64,000 nucleotides of DNA from Xiphophorus maculatus (taxonomy: Eukaryota > Chordata > Actinopteri > Cyprinodontiformes > Poeciliidae): assembly GCF_002775205.1 (NCBI RefSeq), contig NC_036443.1:19811266-19875265 (forward strand). Direction: 5' to 3'. Position 1 is the stretch's first letter. The number at the start of each line of letters is the position of its first letter. This document shows, in pieces, positions 1,250-64,000 of the stretch. Made by a program: the position numbers and the translations under genes. The notes under the pieces are model-generated. The model ran no database searches. It was not told the origin of the DNA and worked only from the letters and a program-made list of their open reading frames with translations.

Positions 1250-3814
1250 CTAGAAAATTTCGGAAGAAATTTAGCCGGGGCCTGCCAAGGCGCGCCCGTC
1301 GGGCATGGGCCCGGCGTCGTCGCGCCACAAATCGGCGTCGACGCCAAAGGACGCCGCGACGTGATCAGTGGCACGCGGAGAACCGCAAGAACGTTAAGCG
1401 AGGCGGACGTGCACCGTTCGGTACGATTTAAAATGTTGTCAAGGCTTTTATTTTGGAAGTTTTGTTAACCTTCATTTCAAAGGGCCAAACTAATCCCATG
1501 CGTAATAGTCCTTGGGTTAAAATAGTTATATAATGCTCAAAACACAAGTAGCTGATGTAAAAATATTCAAGGCTTTTATTTTGAAATTTTCAGTATGCTT
1601 CATTTCAAAGGGCCAAACTAATACCACGTGTAACAGTGCTTTGGATGAAAAAGTCAAATAAAGCCAAAAAGAGCAATTACGTCATGTAAAATTATTCAAG
1701 GCTTTTATTTTGAAATTTTCAGAATGCTTCATTTCAAAGGGCCAAACTAATACCACGTGTAACAGTGCTTTGGATGAAAAAGTCAAATAAAGCCAAAAAG
1801 AGCAATTACCTGATGTAAAAATATTCAAGGCTTTTATTTTGAAATTATTATTATGCTCCATTTTAAAGTTCCAAACTAATCCCATGTGTAACAGTGCTTT
1901 GGATGAAAAAGTCATATAAAGCCAAAAACAGCAATTACCTGATGTAAAAATATTCAAGGCTTTTATTTTGAAATTTTCAGTATGCTTCATTTCAAAGTTC
2001 CAAAGTAATCCCATGTGTAACAGTGCTTTGGATGAAAACGTCAAATAAAGCCAAAAACAGCAATTACCTGATGTAAAAATATTCAAGGCTTTTATTTTGA
2101 AATTATGATTATGCTCCATTTTAAAGTTCCGAACTAATCCCATGTGTAACATTGCTTTGGATGAAAAAGTCATATACGGCCAAAAAGAGCAATTACTTCA
2201 TGTAAAATATTCAAGGCTTTTATTTTGAAATTTTCAGTATGCTTCATTTGAAAGTTCTGAACTAATACCACGTGTAAGAGTGCTTTGGATGAAAAAGTCA
2301 AATAAAGCCAAAAAGAGCAATTACGTCATGTAAAAATATTCAAGGCTTTTATTTTGAAACTTTTGTTAAGCTTCATTTCAAAGGGCCAAACTAATACCAC
2401 GTGTAACAGTGCTTTGGATGAAAAAGTCAAATAAAGCCAAAAAGAGCAATTACATGATGTAAAAATATTCAAGGCTTTAATTTTGAAATTTTTGTTAATA
2501 TTCATTTCAAAGGGCCAAACTAATACCATGTGTAACAGTGCTTTGGATGAAAAAGTCAAATAAAGCCAAAAAGAGCAATTACGTCATGTAAAAATATTCA
2601 AGGCTTTTATTTTGAAATTTGCAGGATGCTTCATTTCAAAGGGCCAAACTAATCCCATGCGTAATAGTCCTTCGGTTAAAATAGTTATATAATGCTCAAA
2701 ACACAAGTAGCTGATGTAAAAATATTCAAGGCTTTTATTTTGAAATTTTTGTTAAGCTTCATTTTAAAGGGCCAAACTAATACCATGTGTAACAGTGCTT
2801 TGGATGAAAAAGTCAAATAAAGCCAAAAAAGAGCAATTACGTCATGTAAAAATATTCAGGGCTTTTATTGTGAAATTTTCAATATGCTTAATTTTAAAGT
2901 GTAAAACTAATCCCATGTGTAACAGTTACTGAGTTAAATCAGTTATATACAGCCCAAAGCAGCAAGTAGTTGTAAAGGCCAGTTCTCAGTCCTGATCTGT
3001 TTCAACTGAGGATAGATAGAACTACAACGATGCGTATTCGTAGTCCTAACCAGCAGCCAATAGCCTCTTGAGTTCCGTTGCTATGGCAAATAATGGTCTC
3101 AGCAGGTGTGAGCTCTGAGCTGTGAGCTCTCAAACACACAAGTGTGTTTGAGCAAACACACTTTACTGAAAAAAAGCATTGGAAACAAATCCTTCTTGTT
3201 CGGGAACCGTAATACATATTCGAAAAGCGTTTTAAGCGTATGACAGTTCAATGTGTCTTCTGCGATAGTCCCGAGATTCATATCTGTACCTCACTCAGAG
3301 CATTTACAGTGATGAGAGAAAGAAATGTTGTGCCCAGATATGAACCGAGGTCGGCTGTCACTCTAATATGAGCAAAAATGAGAAACTTTGGGTCGCTTAG
3401 AGGCAAATTGTGGACAAACCATAACTGGTATCGACGAGCCGTCTTCACTTTCGAAGAGATCACAGACGTATCTACAAAATGAAATTTGAATGGCATTTCT
3501 AGGTGAATTTGTGACGACACAGCAAATCCTCAAAAATAGGGTATTTCTAGGATTTTTCCCATTGAGTTATAATGGGGTTTTTTTCGTAGTTTTTTGCGAA
3601 TTATGTCGCCATGTTAATCCCGAATCCCACCAAAAGTAATAGCTGGAATGGCGTGAATTTTCTGCACGTTTTGATACCTCTTTTGTAGGTGTGCACGCAG
3701 CGGTATGAGCCGCATTAACGGTTACGGATGAAAAATAAAGAATAATAATAATAAAGAAACTTTTCTTGGGAGAATAGCAATAGGTTCCTGCCATTGCTTT
3801 GCATGGCAGGCCCC
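1250..3814 (-). mobile_element. composite element copy A: isolated, full-length, Helentron/HINE-like
   Basis: This is the only copy flanked by apparently ordinary sequence on both sides. Read on the minus strand it starts with GGGGCCTGCC and a hairpin (CCTGCCAT...ATGGCAGG). Next come a conserved 5' module (about 3760 down to 2960), about 12 monomers of a 129 bp repeat (about 2960 down to 1435), and a CpG-rich 3' module. The 3' module carries GGCAGGCCCC, then the hairpin AAATTTCTTCCGAAATTT, then CTAG at 1253-1250. On the plus strand the element lies between ..TTGAA and AATGAA.., which fits insertion between two T residues on its own strand. The 5' and subterminal 3' GGGGCCTGCC inverted repeats followed by a 3' hairpin resemble Helentron-type rolling-circle elements. 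No transposase is encoded. Monomer order in its array matches part of copy G, so the two are closely related. Confidence 0.75.
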
Positions 3815-44052: not shown

Positions 44053-44150
44053 CTAGAAAATTTCTGAAGAAATTTAGCCGGGGCCTGCCAAAGCTTGCCC
44101 GTCGGTTTGGGCCCGGCGTTGTCATGCTACAAATTAGCATCGATGCTAAA
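44053..44150 (-). mobile_element. composite element 3' end, solo and CpG-decayed
   Basis: CTAG at 44053-44056, hairpin AAATTTCTGAAGAAATTT, then GCCGGGGCCTGCC and a version of the 3' module. Many CpG sites of other copies are TpG or CpA here (for example TTAGCATCGATGCTAA where others read TGGCGTCGACGCCAA). It is followed by different sequence (44150-44930) that has an inverted counterpart at 52600-53460. Confidence 0.7.
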
Positions 44151-44935
44151 GAACGCTTCAATGTAATCAATAACTGGCTTTCACGAAAGCCAGTTAGCAA
44201 ATTGCTAACATGTGAACAAATTGTGATTCCGGTTTTTGTCGTAGAAAAAATATTCCATCAAGGTAGCAGCTACGCTATCAGAGCCACAACAAAATATCCC
44301 ACAGCAGTCAAACTTTTAAAATCAATCACATTTCTTAAAGAACACATTACATTTAACAACTGTAAGCAGTTCTAATAATATAGTAATTAAATTAAATAGT
44401 ATATTTTATGGACAGAACACAAACACTTCTTACCTTAACCAAGCAGAGTCGGAAGCAGAAAGCTTCTTCTGCTTCTTTGTGATTTTAGCGGCGGGTGACA
44501 TCTAACGTTAATATGTATTATCGCCATCTACTGTGCTGGAGTGTGTACGACAGCATCTCCCCCAATCTAAATTCTTACATATAATCCTGTTACCTTCAAA
44601 AATGTAATAACCGCTTTATTTATTTTGTGTTTAATTAATATCTTATTAAGTTTAAATGTCTCTATATCATATTTCCTAATTTATTGTTTTAGCTTCTCTC
44701 TACTTGCTTTATATTTTCCACAATTAATTATTACATGTTCTACTGTTTCCATATCCATACCACACTCACATCTACCTGTTGGATGTTTACCAATCAAATT
44801 TAAAGTTTTGTTTAATCCAGTATATCCAAGGCACAATCTTTTTTTTTTTTCATACTTGCTCTTTTCGCTTTTCAGACTTACAATACTTCATTTGAGCCAG
44901 CTGGGGGAGACAATTCTCTGTTTTAGCCAGTAGGG
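44150..44935 (-). repeat. left arm of chimeric inverted segment
   Basis: On the minus strand this segment repeats blocks found at 52600-53460 in the same order. They are the LINE-like fragment, AGGATTATATGTAAG, CAGTAGATGGCGATAATAC, AGAAGCTTTCTGC, TTGGTTAAGGTAAGAAGTGT, TGACTGCTGTGGGATATTTT and AACTGGCTTTCGTGAAA. The arms are clearly diverged in places (indels of 30 bp and more), so they are not a recent duplication. Confidence 0.7.
44590..44870 (-). pseudogene. LINE ORF2 C-terminal fragment, left arm
   Basis: Minus-strand counterpart of 52664-52880; it reads LGYTGLNKTLNLIGKHPTG and then CECGMDMETVEHVI, a C-x-C...H...C tail typical of some non-LTR retrotransposon ORF2 proteins. No reverse transcriptase domain is present. 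Confidence 0.6.
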
Positions 44936-45150
44936 TATTAGGGTTTTCAATGGATTTTCCCCATTGACTTATAATGGGGTTTTTTTCGTAGTTTTTTGCG
45001 AATTATGTCGCCATGTTCATCCCGAATCCCACCAAAAGTAATAGCTGGAATGGCGTGAATTTTCTGCAGGTTTTGATACCTCTTTTGTAGGTGTGCACGC
45101 AGCGGTATGAGCCGCATTAACGGTTACGGATGAAAAATAAAGAATTATAA
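44936..45150 (-). mobile_element. composite element 5' module, truncated
   Basis: Matches the first 215 bp of the 5' module (GTAACCGTTAATGCGGCTCA to ATTATAAGTCAATGGGG) and abuts the 3' end of copy B at 45151. Its inner border with the chimeric segment is the same as that of 52364-52600, so truncation came before the inversion or duplication. Confidence 0.75.
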
Positions 45151-46925
45151 CTAGAAAAACAAAATTTCTGAAGAAATTTAGCCGGGGCCTGCCAAGGCGC
45201 GCCCGTCGGGCTTGGGCCCGGCGTCGTCACGCCACAAATTGGCGTCGACGCTAAAGAACGCCGCAACGTAATCAGTGGCACGCGGAGAACCACAAGAACG
45301 TTAAGCGAGGCGGACGTGCACCATTCAGTACGATTTAAAATGTTGTCAAGGCTTTTATTTTGGAAGTTTTGTTAAACTTCATTTCAAAGGGCCAAACTAA
45401 TCCCATGCGTAATAGTCCTTGGGTTAAAATAGTTATATAATGCTCAAAACACAAGTAGCTGATGTAAAAATATTCAAGGCTTTTATTTTGAAATTTTCAG
45501 TATGCTCCATTTTAAAGTTCCGAACTAATCCCATGTGTAACAGTGCTTTGGATGAAAAAGTCATATACGGCCAAAAAAAGCAATTACGTCATGTAAAATA
45601 TTCAAGGCTTTTATTTTGAAATTTTCAGTATGCTTAATTTTAAAGTTCCAAACTAATCCCATGTGTAACAGTGCTTTGGATGAAAAAGTCACATAAAGCC
45701 AAAAAGAGCAATTACGTCATGTAAAATATTCAAGGCTTTTATTTTGAAATTTTCAGTATGCTTAATTTTAAAGTTCCAAAATAATCCCATGTGTAACAGT
45801 TACTGAGTTAAATCAGTTATATACAGCCCATAGCAGCGGGTAGTTCTAAAGGCCAGTTCTCAGTCCTGATCTGTTTCAACTGAGGATAGATAGAACTACA
45901 GCGATGCGTATTTGTAGTCCAAATCAGCAGCCAATAGCCTCTTGAGATCCGTTGCTATGGCAAATAATGGTCTCAGCAGGTGTGAGCTGTGAGTCATACA
46001 TGCTCAAACACACAATTGTGTGTTTGAGCCAACACGGTTTACTGAAAAAAAGCATTGGAAACAAATCCTTCTTGTTCGGGAACCGTAATACATATTCGAA
46101 AAGCGTTTCGAGCGTATGAGAGGCCTATGTGTCTTCTGCGATAGTCCCGAGATTCATATCTGTACCTCACTCAGAACATTTACAGTGATGAGAGAAAGAA
46201 ATGTTGTGCCCAGATCTGAAATTCTATTCAAATACATGGGAGAGAGCCTCAGACAGCCTCAGAAAATCCTGTCGCATGACTTTGCTCTGAAGCACCGTGA
46301 CAGAAAACCGTACGGTCTAGATAAATTTCGAAAACATTTTACCGGAGCAGACAGGCGTATCAATGTCAGGACCGATTGTGATACTAATCGTGCGATATTT
46401 GTGGGCGTGATGGCGATTTCAAAAATGATTTGGGCTGAAAAAGTTGTCTTCATCTCTCACTCTAAGCAGCCAGAGACGCACTCTAACTTTAGGAAAAATG
46501 AGAAACTTTGGGTCGCTTAGAGGCAAATTGTGGACAAACCGTAACTGGTATCGACGAGCCGTCTTCACTTTCGAAGAGATCACAGACGTATCTACAAAAT
46601 GAAATTTGAATGGCATTTCTAGGTGAATTTGTGACGACACAGAAAATCCTCAAAAATATTGTATTTCTAGGATTTTTCCCATTGACTTATAATGGGGTTT
46701 TTTTCGTAGTTTTTTGCGAATTATGTCGCCACGTTAAGCCCAAATCCCACCAGAAGTAATAGCTGGAATGGCGTGAATTTTCTGCACGTTTTGATACCTC
46801 ATTTGTAGGTGTGCACCAAGCGGTATGAGCCGCATTAACGGTTACGGAAGAAAAATAAAGAATAAAGAAACACTTTCTCCGACAATAGCAATAGGTTCCT
46901 GCCATTGCTTTGCATGGCAGGCCCC
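45151..46925 (-). mobile_element. composite element copy B (long 5' module subtype)
   Basis: On the minus strand it runs from GGGGCCTGCC at 46925, through the hairpin, 5' module and about four 129 bp monomers (45790-45340), to the hairpin and CTAG at 45154-45151. Its 5' module has a 280 bp block (about 46218-46497) that copies A, C, D, F, G and H replace with about 36 bp. Only copy I shares it. The block is antisense-open over 46116-46520 (134 codons), without a recognised domain. Confidence 0.75.
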
Positions 46926-47180
46926 AATAATAATAATAATAAAGAAACTTTTCTTGGGAGAATAGCAATAGGTTCCTGCCATTGCTTTGCATGGCAGGCC
47001 CCAAAAATGGTGGTTCAACTTCAACCACACCATTTAGTGGTAGAACCAATCAGCTTAAGCCATAAAGAACACGTGCATGAACATATGAAGTACACACTCA
47101 AAAGCCAGAAGGAGGCTTCTGACCACAAATGCTGCTTTGAGTTAATGAAACTCTTCGGTCAATATTCGAGGACTCTGATT
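46926..47180. other. extra 5' hairpin unit and unique spacer at the centre of the inverted structure
   Basis: A second 5' hairpin unit (minus strand) ends at 47002. Positions 47003-47180 are unique in the window and separate the minus-strand copies from the plus-strand copies. The spacer is open in one plus frame (around EHVHEHMKYTLKSQKEASD), with no domain that I recognise. Confidence 0.5.
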
Positions 47181-47740
47181 GGGGCCTGCCATGCAAAGCA
47201 ATGGCAGGAACCTATTGCTATTCTCCCAAGAAAAGTTTCTTTATTATTATTGGGGCCTGCCATGCAAAGCAATGGCAGGAACCTATTACTATTGTCGGAG
47301 AGAAGCGTCTCTTTAATATTATTATTGGGGCCTGCCATGCAAAGCAATGGCAGGAACCTATTACTATTGTCGGAGAGAAGCGTCTCTTTAATATTATTGG
47401 GGCCTGCCATGCAAAGCAATGGCAGGAACCTATTACTATTGTCGGAGAGAAGCGTCTCTTTAATATTATTATTGGGGCCTGCCATGCAAAGCAATGGCAG
47501 GAACCTATTACTATTGTCGGAGAGAAGCGTCTCTTTAATATTATTGGGGCCTGCCATGCAAAGCAATGGCAGGAACCTATTACTATTGTCGGAGAGAAGC
47601 GTCTCTTTAAGTATTATTGGGGCCTGCCATGCAAAGCAATGGCAGGAACCTATTGCTATTCTCCCAAGAAAAGTTTCTTTATTATTATTGGGGCCTGCCA
47701 TGCAAAGCAATGGCAGGAACCTATTGCTATTGTCGGAGAA
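47181..47740 (+). repeat. tandem array of eight hairpin-bearing 5' end units
   Basis: About eight units of 70-77 bp each begin GGGGCCTGCCATGCAAAGC and contain the hairpin arms CCTGCCAT and ATGGCAGG, followed by AACCTATT(G/A)CTATT. Two tail types occur: CTCCCAAGAAAAGTTTC (first and seventh units) and GTCGGAGAGAAGCGTCTC (second to sixth). The eighth has GTCGGAGAAAGTGTTTC and continues directly into copy C. Units are joined by ATTATTATT runs of variable length. This is a multimer of the 5' terminus of the composite element. Confidence 0.9.
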
Positions 47741-50129
47741 AGTGTTTCTTTATTCTTTATTTTTCTTCCGTAACCGTTAATGCGGCTCATACCGCTTGGT
47801 GCACACCTACAAATGAGGTATCAAAACCTGCAGAAAATTCACGCCATTCCAGCTATTACTTCTGGTGGGATTTGGGCTTAACGTGGCGACATAATTCGCA
47901 AAAAACTACGAAAAAAAACCCATTATAACTCAATGGGAAAAATCCTAGAAATACCCTATTTTTGAGGATTTGCTGTGTCGTCACAAATTCACCTAGAAAT
48001 GCCATTCAAATTTCATTTTGTAGATACGTCTGTGATCTCTTCGAAAGTGAAGACGGCTCGTCGATACCAGTTACGGTTTGTCCACAATTTGCCTCTAAGC
48101 GACCCAAAGTTTCTCATTTTTCTTCACATTAGAGTGACAGCCCATCTCGGTTCATATCTGGGCACAACATTTCTTTCTCTCATCACTGTAAATGCTCTGA
48201 GTGAGGTACAGATATGAATCTCGGGACTATCGCAGAAGACACATTGAACTGTCATACGCTTAAAACGCTTTTCGAATATGTATTACGGTTCCCGAACAAG
48301 AAGGATTTGTTTCCAATGCTTTTTTTCAGTAAAGTGTGTTTGCTCAAACACACTTGTGTGTTTGACAGCTCAGAGCTCAGAGCTCACACCTGCTGAGACC
48401 ATTATTTGCCATAGCAACGGAACTCAAGAGGCTATTGGCTGCTGGTTAGGACTACGAATACGCATCACTGTAGTTCTATCTATAGTGGAATACTCAGTTG
48501 AAACAGATCAGGACTGAACTGGCCTTTACAACTAATTGCTGCTTTGGGCTGTATATAACTGATTTAACTCAGTAACTGTTACACATGGGATTAGTTTTAC
48601 ACTTTAAAATTAAGCATATTGAAAATTTCACAATAAAAGCCCTGAATATTTTTACATGACGTAATTGCTCTTTTTTGGCTTTATTTGACTTTTTCATCCA
48701 AAGCACTGTTACACATGGTATTAGTTTGGCCCTTTAAAATGAAGCTTAACAAAAATTTCAAAATAAAAGCCTTGAATATTTTTACATGACATAATTGCTC
48801 TTTTTGGCTTTATTTGACTTTTTCATCCAAAGCACTGTTACACATGGTATTAGTTCAGAACTTTAAAATGAAGCATACTGAAAATTTCAAAATAAAAGCC
48901 TTGAATATTTTTACATCATGTAATTGCTCTTTTTGGCTTTATATGACTTTTTCATCCAAAGCACTGTTACACATGGGATTAGTTTGGAACTTTAAAATGA
49001 AGCATACTGAAAATTTCAAAATAAAAGCCTTGAATATTTTTACATCATGTAATTGCTCTTTTTGGCTTTATTTGACTTTTTCATCCAAAGCACTGTTACA
49101 CATGGTATTAGTTTGGAACTTTAAAATGGAGCATAATAATAATTTCAAAATAAAAGCCTTGAATATTTTTACATCATGTAATTGCTGTTTTTGGCTTTGT
49201 ATGACTTTTTCATCCAAAGCACTGTTACACATGGGATTAGTTCGGAACTTTAAAATGAAACATACTGAAAATTTCAAAATAAAAGCCTTGAATATTTTTA
49301 CATCATGTAATTGCTCTTTTTGGCTTTATTTGACTTTTTCATCCAAAGCACTGTTACACATGGGATTAGTTTGGCCCTTTGAAATGAAGCATACTGAAAA
49401 TTTTAAAATAAAAGCCTTGAATATTTTTACATGACGTAATTGCTGTTTGTGGCTTTATGTGACTTTTTCATCCAAAGCACTGTTACACATGGGATTAGTT
49501 TGGCCCTTTGAAATGAAGCATACTGAAAATTTTAAAATAAAAGCCTTGAATATTTTTACATGACGTAATTGCTCTTTTTGGCTTTATTTTACTTTTCCAT
49601 CCAAAGCACTGTTACACATGGGATTAGTTTGGAACTTTAAAATTAAGCATACTGAAAATTTCAAAATAAAAGCCTTGAATATTTTACATGACGTAATTGC
49701 TTTTTTTGGCCGTATATGACTTTTTCATCCAAAGCACTGTTACACATGGGATTAGTTCGGAACTTTAAAATGGAGCATACTGAAAATTTCAAAATAAAAG
49801 CCTTGAATATTTTTACGTCAGCTACTTGTGTTTTGAGCATTATATAACTATTTTAACCCAAGGACTATTACGCATGGGATTAGTTTGGCCCTTTGAAATG
49901 AAGTTTAACAAAACTTCCAAAATAAAAGCCTTGACAACATTTTAAATCGTACCGAATGGTGCACGTCCGCCTCGCTTAACGTTCTTGCGGTTCTCCGCGT
50001 GCCACTGGTTACGTTGCGGCGTTCTTTGGCGTCGACGCCGATTTGTGGCGTGACGACGCCGGGCCCAAGCCCGACGGGCGCGCCTTGGCAGGCCCCGGCT
50101 AAATTTCTTCAGAAATTTTGTTTTTCTAG
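47690..50129 (+). mobile_element. composite element copy C
   Basis: Starts GGGGCCTGCC, followed by the 5' module (to about 48580), about 11 monomers of 129 bp, and the 3' module with GGCGTCGACGCC and GGCAGGCCCC, ending hairpin-TTTTGTTTTTCTAG. Its 5' module contains the hairpin arms CTCAAACACAC and GTGTGTTTGAG (about 48342-48365). The next copy begins one base after CTAG. Confidence 0.85.
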
Positions 50130-50130
50130 T

Positions 50131-52363
50131 TATTCTTTATTTTTCATCCGTAACCGTTAATGCGGCTCATACCGCTGCGTGCACACCTACAAAAGAGGTA
50201 TCAAAACGTGCAGAAAATTCACGCCATTCCAGCTATTACTTTTGGTGGGATTCGGGATTAACATGGCGACATAATTCGCAAAAAACTACGAAAAAAACCC
50301 CATTATAACTCAATGGGAAAAATCCTAGAAATACCCTATTTTTGAGGATTTGCTGTGTCGTCACAAATTCACCTAGAAATGCCATTCAAATTTCATTTTG
50401 TAGATACGTCTGTGATCTCTTCGAAAGTGAAGACGGCTCGTCGATACCAGTTATGGTTTGTCCACAATTTGCCTCTAAGCGACCCAAAGTTTCTCATTTT
50501 TGCTCATATTAGAGTGACAGCCGACCTCGGTTCATATCTGGGCACAACATTTCTTTCTCTCATCACTGTAAATGCTCTGAGTGAGGTACAGATATGAATC
50601 TCGGGACTATCGCAGAAGACACATTGAACTGTCATACGCTTAAAACGCTTTTCGAATATGTATTACGGTTCCCGAACAAGAAGGATTTGTTTCCAATGCT
50701 TTTTTTCAGTAAAGTGTGTTTGCTCAAACACACTTGTGTGTTTGAGAGCTCACAGCTCAGAGCTCACACCTGCTGAGACCATTATTTGCCATAGCAACGG
50801 AACTCAAGAGGCTATTGGCTGCTGGTTAGGACTACGAATACGCATCGTTGTAGTTCTATCTATCCTCAGTTGAAACAGATCAGGACTGAGAACTGGCCTT
50901 TACAACTACTTGCTGCTTTGGGCTGTATATAACTGATTTAACTCAGTAACTGTTACACATGGGATTAGTTTTACACTTTAAAATTAAGCATATTGAAAAT
51001 TTCACAATAAAAGCCCTGAATATTTTTACATGACGTAATTGCTCTTTTTTGGCTTTATTTGACTTTTTCATCCAAAGCACTGTTACACATGGTATTAGTT
51101 TGGCCCTTTAAAATGAAGCTTAACAAAAATTTCAAAATAAAAGCCTTGAATATTTTTACATCAGCTACTTGTGTTTTGAGCATTATATAACTATTTTAAC
51201 CGAAGGACTATTACGCATGGGATTAGTTTGGCCCTTTGAAATGAAGCATCCTGCAAATTTCAAAATAAAAGCCTTGAATATTTTTACATGACATAATTGC
51301 TCTTTTTGGCTTTATTTGACTTTTTCATCCAAAGCACTGTTACACATGGTATTAGTTCAGAACTTTAAAATGAAGCATACTGAAAATTTCAAAATAAAAG
51401 CCTTGAATATTTTTACATCATGTAATTGCTCTTTTTGGCTTTATTTGACTTTTTCATCCAAAGCACTGTTACACATGGTATTAGTTTGGAACTTTAAAAT
51501 GGAGCATAATAATAATTTCAAAATAAAAGCCTTGAATATTTTTACATCATGTAATTGCTGTTTTTGGCTTTGTATGACTTTTTCATCCAAAGCACTGTTA
51601 CACATGGGATTAGTTCGGAACTTTAAAATGAAACATACTGAAAATTTCAAAATAAAAGCCTTGAATATTTTTACATCATGTAATTGCTCTTTTTGGCTTT
51701 ATTTGACTTTTTCATCCAAAGCACTGTTACACATGGGATTAGTTTGGCCCTTTGAAATGAAGCATACTGAAAATTTTAAAATAAAAGCCTTGAATATTTT
51801 TACATGACGTAATTGCTGTTTGTGGCTTTATGTGACTTTTTCATCCAAAGCACTGTTACACATGGGATTAGTTTGGAACTTTAAAATTAAGCATACTGAA
51901 AATTTCAAAATAAAAGCCTTGAAGATTTTACATGACGTAATTGCTTTTTTTGGCCGTATATGACTTTTTCATGCAAAGCACTGTTACACATGGGATTAGT
52001 TCGGAACTTTAAAATGGAGCATACTGAAAATTTCAAAATAAAAGCCTTGAATATTTTTACATCAGCTACTTGTGTTTTCAGCATTATATAACTATTTTAA
52101 CCCAAGGACTATTACGCATGGGATTAGTTTGGCCCTTTGAAATGAAGTTTAACAAAACTTCCAAAATAAAAGCCTTGACAACATTTTAAATCGTACTGAA
52201 TGGTGCACGTCCGCCTCGCTTAACGTTCTTGCGGTTCTCCGCGTGCCACTGATTACGTTGCGGCGTTCTTTAGCGTCGACGCCGATTTGTGGCGTGACGA
52301 CGCCGGGCCCAAGCCCGACGGGCGCGCCTTGGCAGGCCCCGGCTAAATTTCTTCAGAAATTTT
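50131..52363 (+). mobile_element. composite element copy D
   Basis: Head to tail with copy C and lacking the GGGGCCTGCC start; it begins TATTCTTTATTTTTC. The array has about 10 monomers. Much of the array is identical by eye to copy C in monomer order, with deletion of some units and one extra monomer of the CAGCTACTTGTGTTTTGAGC type. It ends CTAG at 52360-52363. Confidence 0.85.
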
Positions 52364-52600
52364 GTTTTTCTAGTTATAATTCTTTATTTTTCATCCGTAA
52401 CCGTTAATGCGGCTCATACCGCTGCGTGCACACCTACAAAAGAGGTATCAAAACCTGCAGAAAATTCACGCCATTCCAGCTATTACTTTTGGTGGGATTC
52501 GGGATGAACATGGCGACATAATTCGCAAAAAACTACGAAAAAAACCCCATTATAAGTCAATGGGGAAAATCCATTGAAAACCCTAATACCCTACTGGCTA
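52364..52600 (+). mobile_element. composite element 5' module, truncated (copy E left part)
   Basis: Follows copy D's CTAG directly, carries the first 215-235 bp of the 5' module and then switches at AAAATCCATTGAAAACCC to the chimeric segment. It is the inverted counterpart of 44936-45150. Confidence 0.75.
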
Positions 52601-53997
52601 AAACAGAGAATTGTCTCCCCCAGCTGGCTCAAATGAAGTATTGTAAGTCTGAAAAGCGAAAAGAGCAAGTATGAAAAAAAAAAGATTGTGCCTTGGATAT
52701 ACTGGATTAAACAAAACTTTAAATTTGATTGGTAAACATCCAACAGGTAGATGTGAGTGTGGTATGGATATGGAAACAGTAGAACATGTAATAATTAATT
52801 GTGGAAAATATAAAGCAAGTACAATAAATTAGGAAATATGATATAGAGACATTTAAACTTAATAAGATATTAATTAAACACAAAATAAATAAAGCGGTTA
52901 TTACATGTTTGAAGGTAACAGGATTATATGTAAGACTTTAGATTGGGGAGCGGTTAACTGAAACGTGGGGCGTGCTAACCCCCTGCGCCACCACAGCACG
53001 CCCCATGAATATTTATGTTATTTCATAAAATTTCTTAAGAAAACTAAACTGATAGAAAGGATTTAGTGTTTTTTTTTTTAAGTTGCGCCCTGATCCACAC
53101 TCCATACCAGTAGGTGGCGGTAATGCACACCATTAAGTTGCTTGCCAACCGCCATTAAAAACAAAAAGAAGAAGAAGAGCTTTCTGCTTCCGACTGCTTG
53201 GTTAAGGTAAGAAGTGTTTGTGTTCTGTCCATAAAATATACTATTTAATTTCATTACTATATTATTAGAACTGCTTACAGTTGTTAAATGTAATGTGTTC
53301 TTTAAGAAATGTGATCGATTTTAAAAGTTTGACTGCTGTGGGATATTTTGTTGTGGCTCTGATAGCGTAGCTGCTAGCTTGATGGAACCACAATTTGTTC
53401 ACATGTTAGCACTTTGCTAACTGGCTTTCGTGAAACCTGTTAGGCTACAAAATCTCTGTTAACATCAATCTGATCAGCTGAAATAAGGCAATTTTGTTTT
53501 ACCTCAACCTAGAGCTATTGTGACTTGCAGAAATTGCCACAAATAACCGGAACTAGCATATTAAGCTACTTCACTGAATCAGTTGCTTCGGATACAGATA
53601 CTCTCAGCTGCCGTCTTGTGCCGACAGTGAAAAACAGCAGAACTACATAATATTAGCTTGGTATGATGTAAATTATAATTTTTGTTTGAATTACATAAAA
53701 TAACTTCATGATCTGAGTTTTTTTTCGTTATGCTTGGCCTATCAATAATTTCAAATAATAAAACATAAAATATCTGGGTTTATTTTGTTCATCCGAACCA
53801 GAACCTCCAGGTTCTCCGTTGTAGAGTTTTACTGAAAATCAGCGGAGAAATATCTGTAGCGCAGCAGCTGCGGTACAGTCTGCCCACTAGAGTAGAACTG
53901 AACCGAACCAAACATGAACGTATTTCATCGCCTAACGAAAGACAAGGAAGCAAAGAGATTTCGGCTAAAGAAATCTGAACTTGATTACATTGCAGCA
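52600..53997 (+). repeat. right arm of chimeric inverted segment
   Basis: Contains in order a LINE C-terminal fragment, GGATTATATGTAAG, a GTAGGTGGCGGTAATGCAC repeat with an AGAAGAAGAAG tail, CTTTCTGCTTCCGACTGC, a donor-like TTAAGGTAAGAAG, and GCTAACTGGCTTTCGTGAAA. From about 53460 to 53997 it has about 540 bp that the left arm lacks. No intact gene is seen. Confidence 0.65.
52664..52880 (+). pseudogene. LINE ORF2 C-terminal fragment, right arm
   Basis: The frame reads LGYTGLNKTLNLIGKHPTG and then CECGMDMETVEHVI...NCGKY, the cysteine/histidine tail of a non-LTR retrotransposon ORF2. Upstream reverse transcriptase sequence is absent, so it is a 3' fragment carried inside the chimeric unit. Confidence 0.6.
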
Positions 53998-54105
53998 TCC
54001 TTTAGCGTCGATGCCAATTTGTAGCGTGACGACGCCGGGCACAAACCAGACGGGCGCGCCTTGGCAGGCCCCGGCTAAATTTCTTCAGAAATTTTGTTTT
54101 TCTAG
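53998..54105 (+). mobile_element. composite element 3' end (copy E right part)
   Basis: Starts TTTAGCGTCGATGCC and ends GGCAGGCCCCGGCTAAATTT, hairpin, CTAG at 54102-54105. It is partly CpG-decayed like its inverted counterpart at 44053-44150, though less so. Confidence 0.75.
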
Positions 54106-56082
54106 TTATTCTTTATTTTTCTTCCGTAACCGTTAATGCGGCTCATACCGCTGGGTGCACACCTACAAATGAGGTATCAAAACGTGCAGAAAATTCACGC
54201 CATTGGAGCTATTACTTCTGGTGGGATTTGGGCTTAACGTGGCGACATAATTCGCAAAAAACTACGAAAAAAACCCCATTATAACTCAATGGGAAAAATC
54301 CTAGAAATACCCTATTTTTGAGGATTTGCTGTGTCGTCACAAATTCACCTAGAAATGCCATTCAAATTTCATTTTGTAGATACGTCTGTGATCTCTTCGA
54401 AAGTGAAGACGGCTCGTCGATACCAGTTACGGTTTGTCCACAATTTGCCTCTAAGCGACCCAAACTTTCTCATTTTTGCTGAAATTACAGTGACAGCCCA
54501 TCTCGGTTCATATCTGGGCACAACATTTCTTTCTCTCATCGCTGTAAATGCTCTGAGTGAGGTACAGATATGAATCTCGGGACTATCGCAGAAGACACAT
54601 TGAACTGTCATACGCTCGAAACGCTTTTCGAATATGTATTACGGTTCCCGAACAAGAAGGATTTGTTTCCAATGCTTTTTTTCAGTAAAGTGTGTTTGCT
54701 CAAACACACTTGTGTGTTTGAGAGCTCACAGCTCAGAGCTCACACCTGCTGAGACCATTATTTGCCATAGCAACGGAACTCAAGAGGCTATTGGCTGCTG
54801 ATTTGGACTACGAATACGCATCGCTGTAGTTCTATCTATCCTCAGTTGAAACAGATCAGGACTGAGAACTGGCCTTTAGAACTACTGCTGCTATGGGCTG
54901 TATATAACTGATTTAACTCAGTAACTGTTACACATGGGATTAGTTTGGAACTTTAAAATGGAGCATAATAATAATTTCAAAATAAAAGCCTTGAATAGTT
55001 TTACATCAGGTAATTGCTGTTTTTGGCTTTATTTGACGTTTTCATCCAAAGCACTGTTACACATGGGATTACTTTGGAACTTTAAAATGGAGAATAATAA
55101 TAATTTCAAAATAAAAGCCTTGAATATTTTTACATCAGGTAATTGCTTTTTTTGGCCGTATATGACTTTTTCATCCAAAGCAATGTTACACATGGGATTA
55201 GTTTGGAACTTTAAAATGGAGAATAATAATTTCAAAATAAAAGCCTTGAATATTTTTACATCAGGTAATTGCTCTTTTTGGCTTTATTTGACGTTTTCAT
55301 CCAAAGCAATGTTACACATGGGATTACTTTGGAACTTTAAAATGGAGAATAATAATAATTTCAAAATAAAAGCCTTGAATATTTTTACATCAGGTAATTG
55401 CTGTTTTTGGCTTTATATGACTTTTTCATCCAAAGCACTGCTACACATGGGATTAGTTTGGAACTTTAAAATGGAGCATAATAATAATTTCAAAATAAAA
55501 GCCTTGAATATTTTTACATCAGGTAATTGCTCTTTTTGGCTTTATTTGACTTTTTCATCCAAAGCACTGTTACACGTGGTATTAGTTTGGCCCTTTGAAA
55601 TGAAGCATTCTGAAAATTTCAAAATAAAAGCCGTGAATAATTTTACATGACGTAATTGCTCTTTTTGGCTTTATTTGACTTTTTCATCCAAAGCACTGTT
55701 ACACGTGGTATTAGTTTGGCCCTTTGAAATGAAGCATACTGAAAATTTCAAAATAAAAGCCTTGAATATTTTTACATCAGCTACTTGTGTTTTGAGCATT
55801 ATATAACTATTTTAACCCAAGGACTATTACGCATGGGATTAGTTTGGCCCTTTGAAATGAAGTTTAACAAAACTTCCAAAATAAAAGCCTCGACAACATT
55901 TTAAATCGTACCGAACGGTGCACGTCCGCCTCGCTTAACGTTCTTGCGGTTCTCCGCGTGCCACTGCTTACGTCGCGGCGTTCTTTGGCGTCGACGCCGA
56001 TTTGTGGCGCGACGACGCCGGGCCCGAACCCCACGGCCGCGCCTTGGCAGGCCCCGGCTAAATTTCTTCCGAAATTTTCTAG
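54106..56082 (+). mobile_element. composite element copy F
   Basis: Begins TTATTCTTTATTTTTCTTCC directly after CTAG. It has a short-type 5' module and about eight monomers, including 126 bp versions with one AAT fewer. The 3' module ends AAATTTCTTCCGAAATTTT and CTAG at 56079-56082, without the GTTTTT insertion seen in copies C, D and E. Confidence 0.85.
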
Positions 56083-59000
56083 TTATTATTATTATTATTA
56101 TAGAACTTTATTTTTCTTCCGTAACCGTTAATGCGGCTCATACCGCTGGGTGCACACCTACAAATGAGGTATCAAAACGTGCAGAAAATTCACGCCATTG
56201 GAGCTATTACTTCTGGTGGGATTTGGGCTTAACGTGGCGACATAATTCGCAAAAAACTACGAAAAAAACCCCATTATAACTCAATGGGAAAAATCCTAGA
56301 AATACCCTATTTTTGAGGATTTGCTGTGTCGTCACAAATTCACCTAGAAATGCCATTCAAATTTCATTTTGTAGATACGTCTGTGATCTCTTCGAAAGTG
56401 AAGACGGCTCGTCGATACCAGTTATGGTTTGTCCACAATTTGCCTCTAAGCGACCCAAAGTTTCTCATTTTTGCTCATATTAGAGTGACAGCCGACCTCG
56501 GATCAGATATGGGCACAACATTTCTTTCTCTCATCGCTGTAAATGCTCTGAGTGAGGTACAGATATGAATCTCGGGACTATCGCAGAAGACACATTGAAC
56601 TGTCATACGCTCGAAACGCTTTTCGAATATGTATTACGGTTCCCGAACAAGAAGGATTTGTTTCCAATGCTTTTTTTCAGTAAAGTGTGTTTGCTCAAAC
56701 ACACTTGTGTGTTTGAGAGCTCACAGCTCAGAGCTCACACCTGCTGAGACCATTATTTGCCATAGCAACGGAACTCAAGAGGCTATTGGCTGCTGGTTAG
56801 GACTACGAATACGCATCACTGTAGTTCTATCTATCCTCAGTTGAAACAGATCAGGACTGAGAACTGGCCTTTAGAACTACTGCTGCTATGGGCTGTATAT
56901 AACTGATTTAACTCAGTAACTGTTACACATGGGATTAGTTTGGAACTTTAAAATGGAGCATAATAATAATTTCAAAATAAAAGCCTTGAATATTTTTACA
57001 TCAGGTAATTGCTGTTTTTGGCTTTATTTGACGTTTTCATCCAAAGCACTGTTACACATGGGATTACTTTGGAACTTTAAAATGGAGAATAATAATTTCA
57101 AAATAAAAGCCTTGAATATTTTCACATCAGGTAATTGCTTTTTTTGGCCGTATATGACTTTTTCATCCAAAGCAATGTTACACATGGGATTAGTTTGGAA
57201 CTTTAAAATGGAGAATAATAATTTCAAAATAAAAGCCTTGAATATTTTTACATCAGGTAATTGCTGTTTTTGGCTTTATTTGACGTTTTCATCCAAATCA
57301 CTGTTACACATGGGATTACTTTGGAACTTTAAAATGGAGAATAATAATAATTTCAAAATAAAAGCCTTGAATATTTTTACATCAGGTAATTGCTTTTTTT
57401 GGCCGTATATGACTTTTTCATCCAAAGCAATGTTACACATGGGATTAGTTTGGAACTTTAAAATGGAGAATAATAATAATTTCAAAATAAAAGCCTTGAA
57501 TATTTTTACATCAGGTAATTGCTGTTTTTGGCTTTATATGACTTTTTCATCCAAAGCACTGTTACACATGGGATTAGTTTGGAACTTTAAAATGGAGCAT
57601 AATAATAATTTCAAAATAAAAGCCTTGAATATTTTTACATCAGGTAATTGCTCTTTTTGGCTTTATTTGACTTTTTCATCCAAAGCACTGTTACACGTGG
57701 TATTAGTTTGGCCCTTTGAAATGAAGCATACTGAAAATTTCAAAATAAAAGCCTTGAATAATTTTACATCAGGTAATTGCTGTTTTTGGCTTTATATGAC
57801 TTTTTCATCCAAAGCACTGTTACACATGGGATTAGTTTGGAACTTTAAAATGGAGCATAATAATAATTTCAAAATAAAAGCCTTGAATATTTTTACATCA
57901 GGTAATTGCTCTTTTTGGCTTTATTTGACTTTTTCATCCAAAGCACTGTTACACGTGGTATTAGTTTGGCCCTTTGAAATGAAGCATACTGAAAATTTCA
58001 AAATAAAAGCCTTGAATAATTTTACATGACGTAATTGCTCTTTTTGGCTTTATTTGACTTTTTCATCCAAAGCACTGTTACACGTGGTATTAGTTTGGCC
58101 CTTTGAAATGAAGCTTAACAAAAGTTTCAAAATAAAAGCCTTGAATATTTTTACATGACGTAATTGCTCTTTTTGGCTTTATTTGACTTTTTCATCCAAA
58201 GCACTGTTACACATGGTATTAGTTTGGCCCTTTGAAATGAATATTAACAAAAATTTCAAAATAAAAGCCTTGAATATTTTTACATCATGTAATTGCTCTT
58301 TTTGGCTTTATTTGACTTTTTCATCCAAAGCACTGTTACACGTGGTATTAGTTTGGCCCTTTGAAATGAAGCTTAACAAAAGTTTCAAAATAAAAGCCTT
58401 GAATATTTTTACATGACGTAATTGCTCTTTTTGGCTTTATTTGACTTTTTCATCCAAAGCACTCTTACACGTGGTATTAGTTCAGAACTTTAAAATGAAG
58501 CATACTGAAAATTTCAAAATAAAAGCCTTGAATATTTTACATGAAGTAATTGCTCTTTTTGGCCGTATATGACTTTTTCATCCAAAGCAATGTTACACAT
58601 GGGATTAGTTCGGAACTTTAAAATGGAGCATAATAATAATTTCAAAATAAAAGCCTTGAATATTTTTACATCAGGTAATTGCTGTTTTTGGCTTTATTTG
58701 ACGTTTTCATCCAAAGCACTGTTACACATGGGATTACTTTGGAACTTTAAAATGGAGAATAATAATAATTTCAAAATAAAAGCCTTGAATATTTTTACAT
58801 GACGTAATTGCTCTTTTTGGCTTTATTTGACTTTTTCATCCAAAGCACTGTTACACATGGTATTAGTTTGGCCCTTTGAAATGAATATTAACAAAAATTT
58901 CAAAATAAAAGCCTTGAATATTTTTACATCATGTAATTGCTCTTTTTGGCTTTATTTGACTTTTTCATCCAAAGCACTGTTACACGTGGTATTAGTTTGG

Positions 59001-60136
59001 CCCTTTGAAATGAAGCTTAACAAAAGTTTCAAAATAAAAGCCTTGAATATTTTTACATGACGTAATTGCTCTTTTTGGCTTTATTTGACTTTTTCATCCA
59101 AAGCACTCTTACACGTGGTATTAGTTCAGAACTTTAAAATGAAGCATACTGAAAATTTCAAAATAAAAGCCTTGAATATTTTACATGAAGTAATTGCTCT
59201 TTTTGGCCGTATATGACTTTTTCATCCAAAGCAATGTTACACATGGGATTAGTTCGGAACTTTAAAATGGAGCATAATAATAATTTCAAAATAAAAGCCT
59301 TGAATATTTTTACATCAGGTAATTGCTGTTTTTGGCTTTATTTGACGTTTTCATCCAAAGCACTGTTACACATGGGATTACTTTGGAACTTTAAAATGGA
59401 GAATAATAATAATTTCAAAATAAAAGCCTTGAATATTTTTACATCAGGTAATTGCTGTTTTTGGCTTTATATGACTTTTTCATCCAAAGCACTGTTACAC
59501 ATGGGATTAGTTTGGAACTTTAAAATGGAGCATAATAATAATTTCAAAATAAAAGCCTTGAATATTTTTACATCAGGTAATTGCTCTTTTTGGCTTTATT
59601 TGACTTTTTCATCCAAAGCACTGTTACACGTGGTATTAGTTTGGCCCTTTGAAATGAAGCATTCTGAAAATTTCAAAATAAAAGCCTTGAATAATTTTAC
59701 ATGACGTAATTGCTCTTTTTGGCTTTATTTGACTTTTTCATCCAAAGCACTGTTACACGTGGTATTAGTTTGGCCCTTTGAAATGAAGCATACTGAAAAT
59801 TTCAAAATAAAAGCCTTGAATATTTTTACATCAGCTACTTGTGTTTTGAGCATTATATAACTATTTTAACCCAAGGACTATTACGCATGGGATTAGTTTG
59901 GCCCTTTGAAATGAAGGTTCACAAAACTTCCAAAATAAAAGCCTTGACAACATTTTAAATCGTACCGAACGGTGCACGTCCGCCTCGCTTAACGTTCTTG
60001 CGGTTCTCCGCGTGCCACTGATCACGTCGCGGCGTCCTTTGGCGTCGACGCCGATTTGTGGCGCGACGACGCCGGGACCATGCCCGACGGGCGCGCCTTG
60101 GCAGGCCCCGGCTAAATTTCTTCCGAAATTTTCTAG
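56083..60136 (+). mobile_element. composite element copy G (largest array)
   Basis: Joined to copy F through a TTATTATTATTATTATTATA junction. It has a short-type 5' module and about 24 monomers (about 56925-59950). Within the array a block of five monomers (644 bp) is duplicated. One frame stays open from 56929 to 58029 (366 codons). It ends CTAG at 60133-60136. Its right half matches copy A in monomer order. Confidence 0.88.
58183..59470 (+). repeat. 644 bp higher-order duplication within copy G
   Basis: Features at 58183, 58441 and 58569 recur at 58827, 59085 and 59213, a constant offset of 644 bp. That is five 129 bp monomers less one base (the ATATTTTACATGAAG monomer lacks one T). The two blocks look identical by eye over most of their length. 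Confidence 0.85.
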
Positions 60137-62257
60137 TTATTATTATTATTATAGAACTTTATTTTTCTTCCGTAACCGTTAATGCGGCTCGTACCGCTGG
60201 GTGCACACCTACAAATGAGGTATCAAATCGTGCAGAAAATTCACGCCATTGGAGCTATTACTTCTGGTGGGATTTGGGGTAAACGTGGCGACATAATTCG
60301 CAAAAAACTACGAAAAAAACCCCATTATAACTCAATGGGAAAAATCCTAGAAATACCCTATTTTTGAGGATTTGCTGTGTCGTCACAAATTCACCTAGAA
60401 ATGCCATTCAAATTTCATTTTGTAGATACGTCTGTGATCTCTTCGAAAGTGAAGACGGCTCGTCGATACCAGTTATGGTTTGTCCACAATTTGCCTCTAA
60501 GCGACCCAAAGTTTCTCATTTTTGCTCATATTAGAGTGACAGCCGACCTCGGATCAGATATGGGCACAACATTTCTTTCTCTCATCACTGTAAATGCTCT
60601 GAGTGAGGTACAGATATGAATCTCGGGACTATCGCAGAAGACACATTGAACTGTCATACGCTTAAAACGCTTTTCGAATATGTATTACGGTTCCCGAACA
60701 AGAAGGATTTGTTTCCAATGCTTTTTTTCAGTAAAGTGTGTTTGCTCAAACACACTTGTGTGTTTGAGAGCTCACAGCTCAGAGCTCACACCTGCTGAGA
60801 CCATTATTTGCCATAGCAACGGAACTCAAGAGGCTATTGGCTGCTGGTTAGGACTACGAATACGCATCACTGTAGTTCTATCTATCCTCAGTTGAAACAG
60901 ATCAGGACTGAGAACTGGCCTTTAGAACTACTGCTGCTATGGGCTGTATATAACTGATTTAACTCAGTAACTGTTACACATGGGATTAGTTTGGAACTTT
61001 AAAATGGAGCATAATAATAATTTCAAAATAAAAGCCTTGAATATTTTTACATCAGGTAATTGCTGTTTTTGGCTTTATTTGACGTTTTCATCCAAAGCAC
61101 TGTTACACATGGGATTACTTTGGAACTTTAAAATGGAGAATAATAATAATTTCAAAATAAAAGCCTTGAATATTTTTACATCAGGTAATTGCTTTTTTTG
61201 GCCGTATATGACTTTTTCATCCAAAGCAATGTTACACATGGGATTAGTTTGGAACTTTAAAATGGAGAATAATAATTTCAAAATAAAAGCCTTGAATAGT
61301 TTTACATCAGGTAATTGCTGTTTTTGGCTTTATTTGACGTTTTCATCCAAAGCACTGTTACACATGGGATTACTTTGGAACTTTAAAATGGAGAATAATA
61401 ATAATTTCAAAATAAAAGCCTTGAATATTTTTACATCAGGTAATTGCTGTTTTTGGCTTTATATGACTTTTTCATCCAAAGCACTGTTACACATGGGATT
61501 AGTTTGGAACTTTAAAATGGAGCATAATAATAACTTCAAAATAAAAGCCTTGAATATTTTTACATCAGGTAATTGCTGTTTTTGGCTTTATATGACTTTT
61601 TCATCCAAAGCACTGTTACACATGGGATTAGTTTGGAACTTTAAAATGGAGCATAATAATAATTTCAAAATAAAAGCCTTGAATATTTTTACATCAGGTA
61701 ATTGCTCTTTTTGGCTTTATTTGACTTTTTCATCCAAAGCACTGTTACACGTGGTATTAGTTTGGCCCTTTGAAATGAAGCATTCTGAAAATTTCAAAAT
61801 AAAAGCCTTGAATAATTTTACATGACGTAATTGCTCTTTTTGGCTTTATTTGACTTTTTCATCCAAAGCACTGTTACACGTGGTATTAGTTTGGCCCTTT
61901 GAAATGAAGCATACTGAAAATTTCAAAATAAAAGCCTTGAATACTTTTACATCAGCTACTTGTGTTTTGAGCATTATATAACTATTTTAACCCAAGGACT
62001 ATTACGCATGGGATTAGTTTGGCCCTTTGAAATGAAGCATACTGAAACTTCCAAAATAAAAGCCTTGACAACATTTTAAATCGTACCGAAAGGTGCACGT
62101 CCGCCTCGCTTAACGTTCTTGCGGTTCTCCGCGTGCCACTGGTGACGTCGCGGCGTTCTTTGGCGTCGACGCCGATTTGTGGCGCGACGACGCCGGGCCC
62201 GAACCCCACGGGCGCGCCTTGGCAGGCCCCGGCTAAATTTCTTCCGAAATTTTCTAG
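60137..62257 (+). mobile_element. composite element copy H
   Basis: Head to tail with copy G through TTATTATTATTATTATAGAAC. It has a short-type 5' module and about nine monomers, and the 3' module ends CTAG at 62254-62257. One frame is open over 60980-61825 (281 codons) for the same reason as in copy G. Confidence 0.86.
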
Positions 62258-64000
62258 TTCTTCTTTATTTTTCTTCCGTAACCGTTAATGCGGCTCATAC
62301 CGCTTGGTGCACACCTACAAATGAGGTATCAAAACCTGCAGAAAATTCACGCCATTCCAGCTATTACTTCTGGTGGGATTTGGGCTTGACGTGGCGACAT
62401 AATTCGCAAAAAACTACGAAAAAAACCCCATTATAAGTCAATGGGAAAAATCCTAGAAATACCCTATTTTTGAGGATTTTCTGTGTCGTCACAAATTCAC
62501 CTAGAAATGCCATTCAAATTTCATTTTGTAGATACGTCTGTGATCTCTTCGAAAGTGAAGACGGCTCGTCGATACCAGTTACGGTTTGTCCACAATTTGC
62601 CTCTAAGCGACCCAAAGTTTCTCATTTTTCCTAAAGTTAGAGTGCGTCTCTGGCTGCTTAGAGTGAGAGATGAAGACAACTTTTTCAGCCCAAATCATTT
62701 TTGAAATCGCCATCACGCCCACAAATATCGCACGATTAGTATCAAAATCGGTCCTGACATTGATACGCCTGTCTGCTCCGGTAAAATGTTTTCGAAATTT
62801 ATCTAGACCGTACGGTTTTCTGTCACGGTGCTTCAGAGCAAAGTCATGCGACAGGATTTTCTGAGGCTGTCTCAGGCTCTCTCCCATGTATTTGAATAGA
62901 ATTTCAGATCTGGGCACAACATTTCTTTCTCTCATCGCTGTAAATGTTCTGAGTGAGGTACAGATATGAATCTCGGGACTATCGCAGAAGACACATAGCC
63001 CTCTCATACGCTCGAAACGCTTTTCGAATATGTATTACGGTTCCCGAACAAGAAGGATTTGTTTCCAATGCTTTTTTGTCAGTAAAACGTGTTTGCTCAA
63101 ACACACAATTGTGTGTTTGAGAGCTCAGAACTCAGAGCTCACACCCTGCTGAGACCATTATTTGCCATAGCAACGGATCTCAAGAGGCTATTGGCTGCTG
63201 GTTTGGACTACGAATACGCATCGCTGTAGTTCTATCTATCCTCAGTTGAAACAGATCAGGACTGAACTGGCCTTTAGAACTACCTGCTGCTATGGGCTGT
63301 ATATAACTGATTTAACTCAGTAACTGTTACACATGGGATTAGTTTTGAACTTTAAAATGAAGCTTAACAAAAATTTCACAATAAAAGCCTTGAATATTTT
63401 TACATGACGTAATTGCTCTTTTTGGCTTTATATGACTTTTTCATCCAAAGCACTGTTACACATGGGATTACTTCGGAACTTTAAAATGGAGCATAATAAT
63501 AATTTCAAAATAAAAGCCTAGAATATTTTTACATCAGGTAATTGCGCTTTTTGGCTTTATGTGACTTTTTTATCCAAAGCACTGTTACACAATGGAATAG
63601 TTTGGCCCTCTGAAATGAATCATACTGAAAATGTCAAAATAAAAGCCTTGAATATTTTTACATCATGTAATTGCTCTTTTTGGCCGTATATGACTTTTTC
63701 ATCCAAAGCACTGTTACACATGGGATTACTTCGGAACTTTAAAATGGAGCATAATAATAATTTCAAAATAAAAGCCTTGAATATTTTTACATCATGTAAT
63801 TGCTCTTTTTGGCCGCATATGACTTTTTCATCCAAAGCACTGTTACGCATGGGATTAGTTCGGAACTTTAAAATGGAGCATAATAATAATTTCAAAATAA
63901 AAGCCTTGAATATTTTTACATCATGTAATTGCTCTTTTTGGCCGCATATGACTTTTTCATCCAAAGCACTGTTACACATGGGATTCGTTCGGAACTTTTA
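62258..64000 (+). mobile_element. composite element copy I (long 5' module subtype, cut by window end)
   Basis: Begins TTCTTCTTTATTTTTCTTCC directly after copy H. It carries the 280 bp block (62630-62909) shared only with copy B. About five to six monomers are visible before the window ends, with no 3' end. The array therefore extends beyond the window. Confidence 0.82.

Follow-up and report, generated by a model that had tools for sequence, protein, structure and literature searches.

The window, a 64,000-nucleotide stretch of Xiphophorus maculatus (NC_036443.1, positions 19,811,266–19,875,265), carries copies of a transposable element family resembling HINE, the non-autonomous type of Helentron. 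This is probably a recently active, non-coding family that inserts at TT, chiefly into the (ATT)n stretch near the 5′ end of its own copies, and in which such nesting builds clusters: copies lie inside copies, placed there through one short site near the element's own 5′ start, until clusters are tens of kilobases long. Nested self-insertion was absent from the original prediction. The stretch 44053–64000 is not a row of full copies: only the innermost copy of each nest is contiguous there, and the other 5′ ends lie apart from their bodies.

Probable nested organisation of the cluster

Between 44053 and 64000, stacked 5′ ends (spacing 71–77 bp) are followed by stacked bodies, each ending at CTAG (Table 1). 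Array I consists of two adjoining 5′ ends, then two bodies. The array at 47178–47752 is a run of eight 5′ ends, not of full copies; array II with its continuation has eight 3′ ends, a ninth 5′ end directly after CTAGTT, and three more 3′ ends, the cluster's last lying beyond the window at window coordinate 74,925, after which other sequence follows. Later bodies start, after CTAG, with TT...TTTATTTTTC(A/T)TCCG, the point where an intact copy continues past its ATT stretch. Because each starts there, the bodies are not truncated at random, and each later body of an array has the look of a copy that picks up again behind an insert.

Each 5′ end was read as an opening (O) and each 3′ end as a closing (C) bracket, and words of at least four tokens were taken (n = 8), that of the window's minus strand joining array I and copy A, a single intact element elsewhere in the window. 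Observed words include OOCC (four loci) and OOOOCOCOCCCC. Seven of the eight never close more than they open, and the summed prefix violation over all eight (−2) was reached by 2 of 100,000 token shuffles; the 18 open-close adjacencies were reached or undercut by 922 of 100,000.

Subfamily types, designated a to d, give a further view of the pairing. In intact copies the letter at the start of the body tracks the 5′ type, being CATCC in a-type copies (5/5) and CTTCC in those of types b, c and d (18/18). In the four two-copy O-O-C-C nests (array I, 77k, 311k and 4583k), an a-type host is split by a c-, b- or d-type insert, and the resumed body matches the outer 5′ type every time (4/4). The balanced 2260k locus (six 5′ and six 3′ ends) shows agreement in two of three cases; strict pairing in balanced loci gives a matching resumed type in 6/7 definable cases.

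Two clean empty sites were found. Removal of its d-type insert leaves the 4583k host identical to intact copy A across 199 bp, an additional TT being the one difference. A sub-nest host at 4257k, interrupted inside its body at GTAG-TT-CTATC (a site intact in 32/51 bodies), differs from the intact 105k copy by an additional TT and seven mismatches over 198 bp. The net gain of TT at both could reflect either a 2-bp duplication or element-borne Ts.

Several observations weigh against nesting as a complete account. The 559k minus-strand word, OCC, falls below the four-token cut and would add one violation. Strict pairing succeeds in 5/7 cases in array II, 1/1 at 447k and 5/9 at 4257k, making 17/24 definable pairs overall with four more undefinable; with two classes, pairing in deep nests is not clearly above chance. 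Numbers of 5′ and 3′ ends are unbalanced in array II (9/11), 4257k (20/17), 447k (7/5) and 559k(−) (1/2). At 311k and in array I, a variable ATT run makes the empty-site comparison differ by further bases besides TT. All sampled bodies of the TATAGAAC type (8/8) and the 1723-bp type (7/7) are interrupted, with no intact copy sampled, which is not fully explained. Finally, no Rep/helicase partner was noticed in the fetched regions (~290 kb with overlaps), where no systematic scan was made and, for ten extra regions, open reading frames (ORFs) were inspected by eye only, from a list.

A strict one-to-one bracket model was accordingly rejected, as it fits shallow nests only. Shallow loci show the nesting clearly; in deep loci, 5′ stubs seem to have disappeared, been exchanged or arrived within composites. 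A composite b-a joint of 5′ ends, TTTAAGTATTATTGGGG, recurs in array II and 4257k, and since it stands directly after CTAGTT in the latter, some composite elements have probably moved as one unit.

Insertion sites

Insertion sites were counted in 22 regions, 20 of which had recognised ends: the window with 21.7 kb downstream, and 21 regions representing every motif place among the matches listed in C1:23,573–7,212,086, the start of the window's own contig. A 5′ end was defined as the exact motif after TT, a rule that misses diverged copies; motif places with no TT before or no hairpin after (e.g. one at 105k, 2713k and 7210k) were left uncounted.

Of the 3′ ends (n = 62), 29 are followed by an own-family body that resumes at the 5′ site, eight directly by another 5′ end and one by a resumption inside a body; the other 24 lie elsewhere, although two of these last (447k) look like diverged own-family joints missed by the rule. 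The 61 5′ ends comprise 31 inside another 5′ unit of the family or close kin (30 spaced 63–84 bp, one 124), eight right after an own CTAG, one in a body and 21 elsewhere. As several 5′ ends can travel together, this second count overstates independent events and the 3′-end count is the better one. Thus, where an interruption could be resolved as the resumption of an own body, it is at the 5′ site in 29 of 30 cases. Within its 2565 bp copy A contains 395 TT dinucleotides, of which 14 are at 56–83, so TT alone does not explain a single insertion site.

Of the 'elsewhere' 3′ ends, 21 were usable (three of the 24 were dropped for lack of a clean CTAG), and in 18 of these CTAG is followed by TT, against a frequency of 0.113 for TT among window dinucleotides; the exceptions are 22k, one in 447k and 151k. 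TT at the left flank was excluded as evidence, since the definition of a 5′ token required it. At 559k (L019–L020), two copies in opposite orientation share a 16-base 5′ flank, suggesting an inverted duplication.

Anatomy and identity of the element

Copy A runs from GGGGCCTGCC...ATGGCAGG, forming the 5′ hairpin, through the body to GGCAGGCCCC, the hairpin AAATTTC-TTCC-GAAATTT and CTAG. Between its ends lie (ATT)n near position 60–75, a 0.8-kb module, a 129-bp minisatellite and a short 3′ module. Motif search and sequence reads bore out the originally proposed succession of GGCAGGCCCC, hairpin and CTAG, as well as the claim that copy A is flanked by T on its own strand, TT adjoining it on both sides. 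The tandem core of ~129 bp was also recovered, as eight arrays in the window (seven of period 129, one of 128) by Tandem Repeats Finder (TRF).

The 5′ end is GGGG after TT, and the (ATT)n microsatellite sits 3′ of the 5′ hairpin. Inverted repeats are GGGGCCTGCCA at the 5′ end and TGGCAGGCCCC ahead of the 3′ hairpin, and hence subterminal at the 3′ end. The predicted fold of the 5′ hairpin (CCTGCCAT/ATGGCAGG) has z −1.62 in a-type and −2.92 in b-type units relative to shuffles. The 3′ palindrome is followed by TCTAG or TGTTTTTCTAG, and predicted folding energy at this end is ordinary despite it (z −0.59).

Motif search in the window placed GGGGCCTGCC at 1277, 44080 and 45184, as the 3′ ends of minus-strand copies, eight times within 47181–47690, and as its reverse complement at 3805, 46916, 46993, 50087, 52331, 54063, 56046, 60100 and 62221; AAATTTCTTCCGAAATTT is found at 56060, 60114 and 62235, and reversed at 1255. 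In the 704-Mb genome (101 contigs), the ten bases of GGGGCCTGCC occur 2351 and 2314 times on the two strands, an abundance not due to chance because the same pattern read backwards occurs 86 and 92 times.

By the structure tested, the family is HINE-like: it combines asymmetric inverted repeats (terminal or nearly so and palindromic at the 5′ end, subterminal at the 3′ end), a 3′ palindrome forming a hairpin, a microsatellite with a tandem core, and a T-rich or TT target. The original assignment to a HINE-like rolling-circle family therefore stands as regards end structure, microsatellite, core and TT target, with target-site duplication left ambiguous by the TT gained at the two empty sites. 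A canonical Helitron (Helitron1), with a 5′-TC start and insertion between A and T, does not agree with GGGG after TT and TT insertion, although the 3′ CTAG does fit the CTRR of Helitron1. Two of the array ORFs were scanned (44571–44933 and 46089–46520) and gave no Pfam match.

Table 1 Positions of copy A and of the components of arrays I and II (window coordinates; TRF, Tandem Repeats Finder).
Feature	Position	Strand	Basis
Copy A, single uninterrupted 2565-bp element (5′ terminus 3814, 3′ CTAG 1250)	1250–3814	−	motif search and sequence reads
Copy A 5′ end: GGGGCCTGCCATGCAAAGCAATGGCAGGAACC, hairpin CCTGCCAT/ATGGCAGG	3783–3814	−	sequence read and predicted fold
Copy A minisatellite core, 129-bp period, 11.6 units	1439–2926	−	TRF
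Copy A 3′ end: CTTGGCAGGCCCCGGCT, hairpin AAATTTC-TTCC-GAAATTT overlapping by first bases, TCTAG	1250–1289	−	sequence read
Array I, body of the outer a-type copy, interrupted, resuming at TTATAATTC; minisatellite not found by TRF	44053–45150	−	
Array I, inner intact c-type copy, inserted in 5′ site of outer copy	45151–46925	−	
Array I, 5′ end of outer a-type copy	46926–47002	−	
Array II, tandem run of eight 5′ ends, 71–75 bp apart (types a,b,b,b,b,b,a,c)	47181–47752	+	
Array II body 1, innermost intact c-type copy	47690–50129	+	
Array II body 2, a-type, resumes at TTATTC	50130–52373	+	
Array II body 3, 1723-bp subfamily with a-type start; unrelated sequence inside, minisatellite not found by TRF	52374–54105	+	
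Array II body 4	54106–56082	+	
Array II body 5, longest minisatellite of the window, 23.6 units	56083–60136	+	TRF
Array II body 6	60137–62257	+	
Array II body 7, runs past the window to 64,492	62258–64000	+	
Array II, four further bodies downstream of the window	ends 66612, 68920, 73317, 74925	+	

The 1723-bp subfamily body (52590–53980) and the outer body of array I (44190–44930) both contain unrelated sequence and no minisatellite, and capture of foreign DNA is possible. A frame of 59 amino acids (aa) at 52653–52832 may resemble the C-terminal zinc-knuckle end of a retrotransposon without long terminal repeats (non-LTR). The window also has gene fragments with matches to rabenosyn-5, a galactosyltransferase and a nuclear receptor.

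Subfamilies, age and relatives

Compared over their full length, the 2490-bp bodies show 99.9–100% identity among copy A, 4583k and one 4257k copy; another 4257k copy is 99.1–99.2% identical to these three. Seven bodies of the 1723-bp type from three loci (array II of the window, 2260k and 4257k) are 99.5–99.9% identical among the best matches listed. Since some copies at different loci are 99.9–100% identical, sequence comparison indicates that the family moved recently. Body-specific stretches, defined as 120 bp covered by fewer than four other bodies, occur in 3/51 bodies (one each, 189–259 bp), a measure that says nothing about coding.

A second hairpin just upstream of the insertion site (e.g. 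47252–47326) folds in a, b and c units with differing stems. It fails in one of two d forms and the other d form folds differently; because one d form is without it, this hairpin is not claimed as a determinant of insertion.

The same end motifs with other insides are present in elements of a few hundred bp to ~1.4 kb (L034, 758k; L037, 5469k; L021, 844k; L033, 151k), several of which have a longer 5′ hairpin (GGGGCCTGCCCATAGCAATGC...). Judged by their ends, these short elements belong with the family to a wider clan of non-autonomous elements. Near the short 151k element, a 391-aa open frame (L033, 2548–3720, minus strand) may resemble a non-LTR reverse transcriptase.

Proposed mechanism and alternatives

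A Rep/helicase acting in trans probably moves these elements by rolling-circle copy-and-paste, in which a circle would be made from the 5′ end to CTAG and then joined at TT. The favoured target in the sample is TT-rich (ATT)n, mostly 63–84 bp inside the 5′ end of a resident copy, with the TT directly after a resident CTAG as an additional one. With each hit the new copy would part the ~70-bp 5′ stub of the resident copy from its body and lie between the two; repeated hits would leave the 5′ stubs stacked in front and the bodies stacked behind, i.e. the bracket structure. Some composites with several 5′ ends and one body would probably then have moved as a single unit, and the matching of brackets would become blurred wherever near-identical 5′ stubs were later lost or exchanged.

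The choice of the family's own 5′ ends may reflect a plain preference for ATT runs, or a complex tethered to the hairpins of the resident copy. On a tentative and rather doubtful extension of the second option, the microsatellite of HINE/DINE elements might be a landing pad for the family itself, a complex held by the resident 5′ hairpin (or by the 3′ hairpin, for TT after CTAG) steering the single-stranded circle to the adjacent TT. If so, host genes would be spared, copies stacked in minisatellite-rich blocks and multi-5′ composites formed, and nests would be readable fossils of insertion order; this would suggest a reason why HINE-type elements keep a microsatellite beside the 5′ end. Self-targeting could also be passive, the element liking TT or ATT runs and carrying one itself, so that harmless self-insertions survive. 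This is a serious possibility, if still short of an even one, and compatible with nesting as the builder of clusters; in its favour, some non-self insertions are also in ATT runs (flanks of 4583k and 559k). Tolerance by itself cannot account for 29/30 interruptions at one site in an element with so many TT dinucleotides, which a preference for ATT runs could nevertheless explain.

Other processes could in principle generate the same clusters or termini. Miniature inverted-repeat transposable elements (MITEs) carry symmetric terminal inverted repeats at both termini. A cut-and-paste MITE of this symmetric kind does not fit, as the 3′ repeat lies inside the hairpin-CTAG end. That the family is some MITE-like cut-and-paste element making 2-bp TT duplications, rather than a HINE, is very unlikely: the TT gained at two empty sites formally fits such a duplication, but the right flank is not always TT (3/21 differ) and the inverted repeats are asymmetric, as passages of PMC5148889 and PMC4067079 describe for Helitron2/Helentron ends. 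Stacks might alternatively be rolling-circle concatemers, tandem copies laid down in one event after a missed end signal, and the plant arrays with multiple 5′ ends and a single 3′ end described in part of PMC12628747 lend this some plausibility. Concatemers predict complete copies joined head to tail (OCOC), or one 3′ end behind many 5′ ends, neither of which was seen; the bodies here keep the 3′ end but not their initial ~70 bp, the 5′ ends that they lack form a stack upstream of them, and in array II the subfamily differs from one body to the next. Such an origin is thus highly improbable.

Unequal crossing-over, by which 5′ stubs and bodies would have expanded separately as ordinary satellites, has several observations in its favour: the stubs are near-identical tandem units, counts in deep nests are unequal, and several neighbouring 1723-type bodies in the 4257k sub-nest are mutually closest relatives. 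Against it, many neighbouring bodies differ in subfamily and are closer to those of other loci (array II body 3 is 99.9% identical to a 2260k body), the two-copy nests show hosts and inserts of different type, and two empty sites are clean. As the origin of the clusters it is improbable; as a secondary process it very likely acts. Nested self-insertion accounts directly for the shallow loci and is the preferred cause of the deep ones.

HINE-type elements reach great abundance in some animal genomes; the way in which they form clusters and give rise to satellite-like blocks is not settled. The clusters described here can be parsed as successive insertions with a defined host site and a net sequence gain, in a family whose activity is recent enough for near-identical copies to exist, which makes the target choice of a Helentron-type machine testable.

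Comparison with known systems

Centromeric arrays of plant Helitrons were reportedly described by Xiong et al. in 2016. As portrayed in part of PMC12628747, such arrays likewise contain tandem Helitron pieces and several 5′ ends; many have multiple 5′ ends with a single 3′ end, and truncated copies, whereas the present sample has 62 3′ and 61 5′ ends. A literature search, with most subscription journals outside its reach, found no description of HINE nests of this kind and no match to five terminal sequences of the family; none of five terminus terms is present in the platyfish Helitron paper PMC4021074.

HINE/DINE-1 elements (passages of PMC4067079) and the oyster family Cg_HINE (passages of PMC7492417) resemble the present family in a 5′ subterminal repeat with its complement nearby, a matching 3′ repeat, a 3′ palindrome, a left-module microsatellite, a tandem core in some families, and a T-rich or TT target with flanking Ts. 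According to the relevant sections of PMC4067079, Helentrons are flanked by a variable number of Ts, and the 5′ repeat of HINE is palindromic in mite and Culex, which is not reported there for DINE-1. Neither stacks of 5′ ends and bodies nor self-targeting of the microsatellite is described in those passages of the two papers.

The closest published behaviour found is self-insertion of the Helitron2 element FoHeli of Fusarium oxysporum, in the parts of PMC5148889 concerned with its termini. There the first 73 or 85 nt are duplicated (31 or 65 in others), which is explained by self-insertion near the 5′ end, after which the unit that transposes is bounded by the outer 5′ end and the first 3′ end; also described are one non-autonomous copy lying within a putative autonomous element and, in Metarhizium, one tandem of three copies. 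FoHeli thus shares a 5′ start duplicated by self-insertion, with the spacing here being mostly 63–84 bp. In contrast to these fungal multi-5′ copies with a single 3′ end, the nests of the present family go deep, with 17 3′ ends in ~40 kb at 4257k, and roughly half of the sampled ends lie in them.

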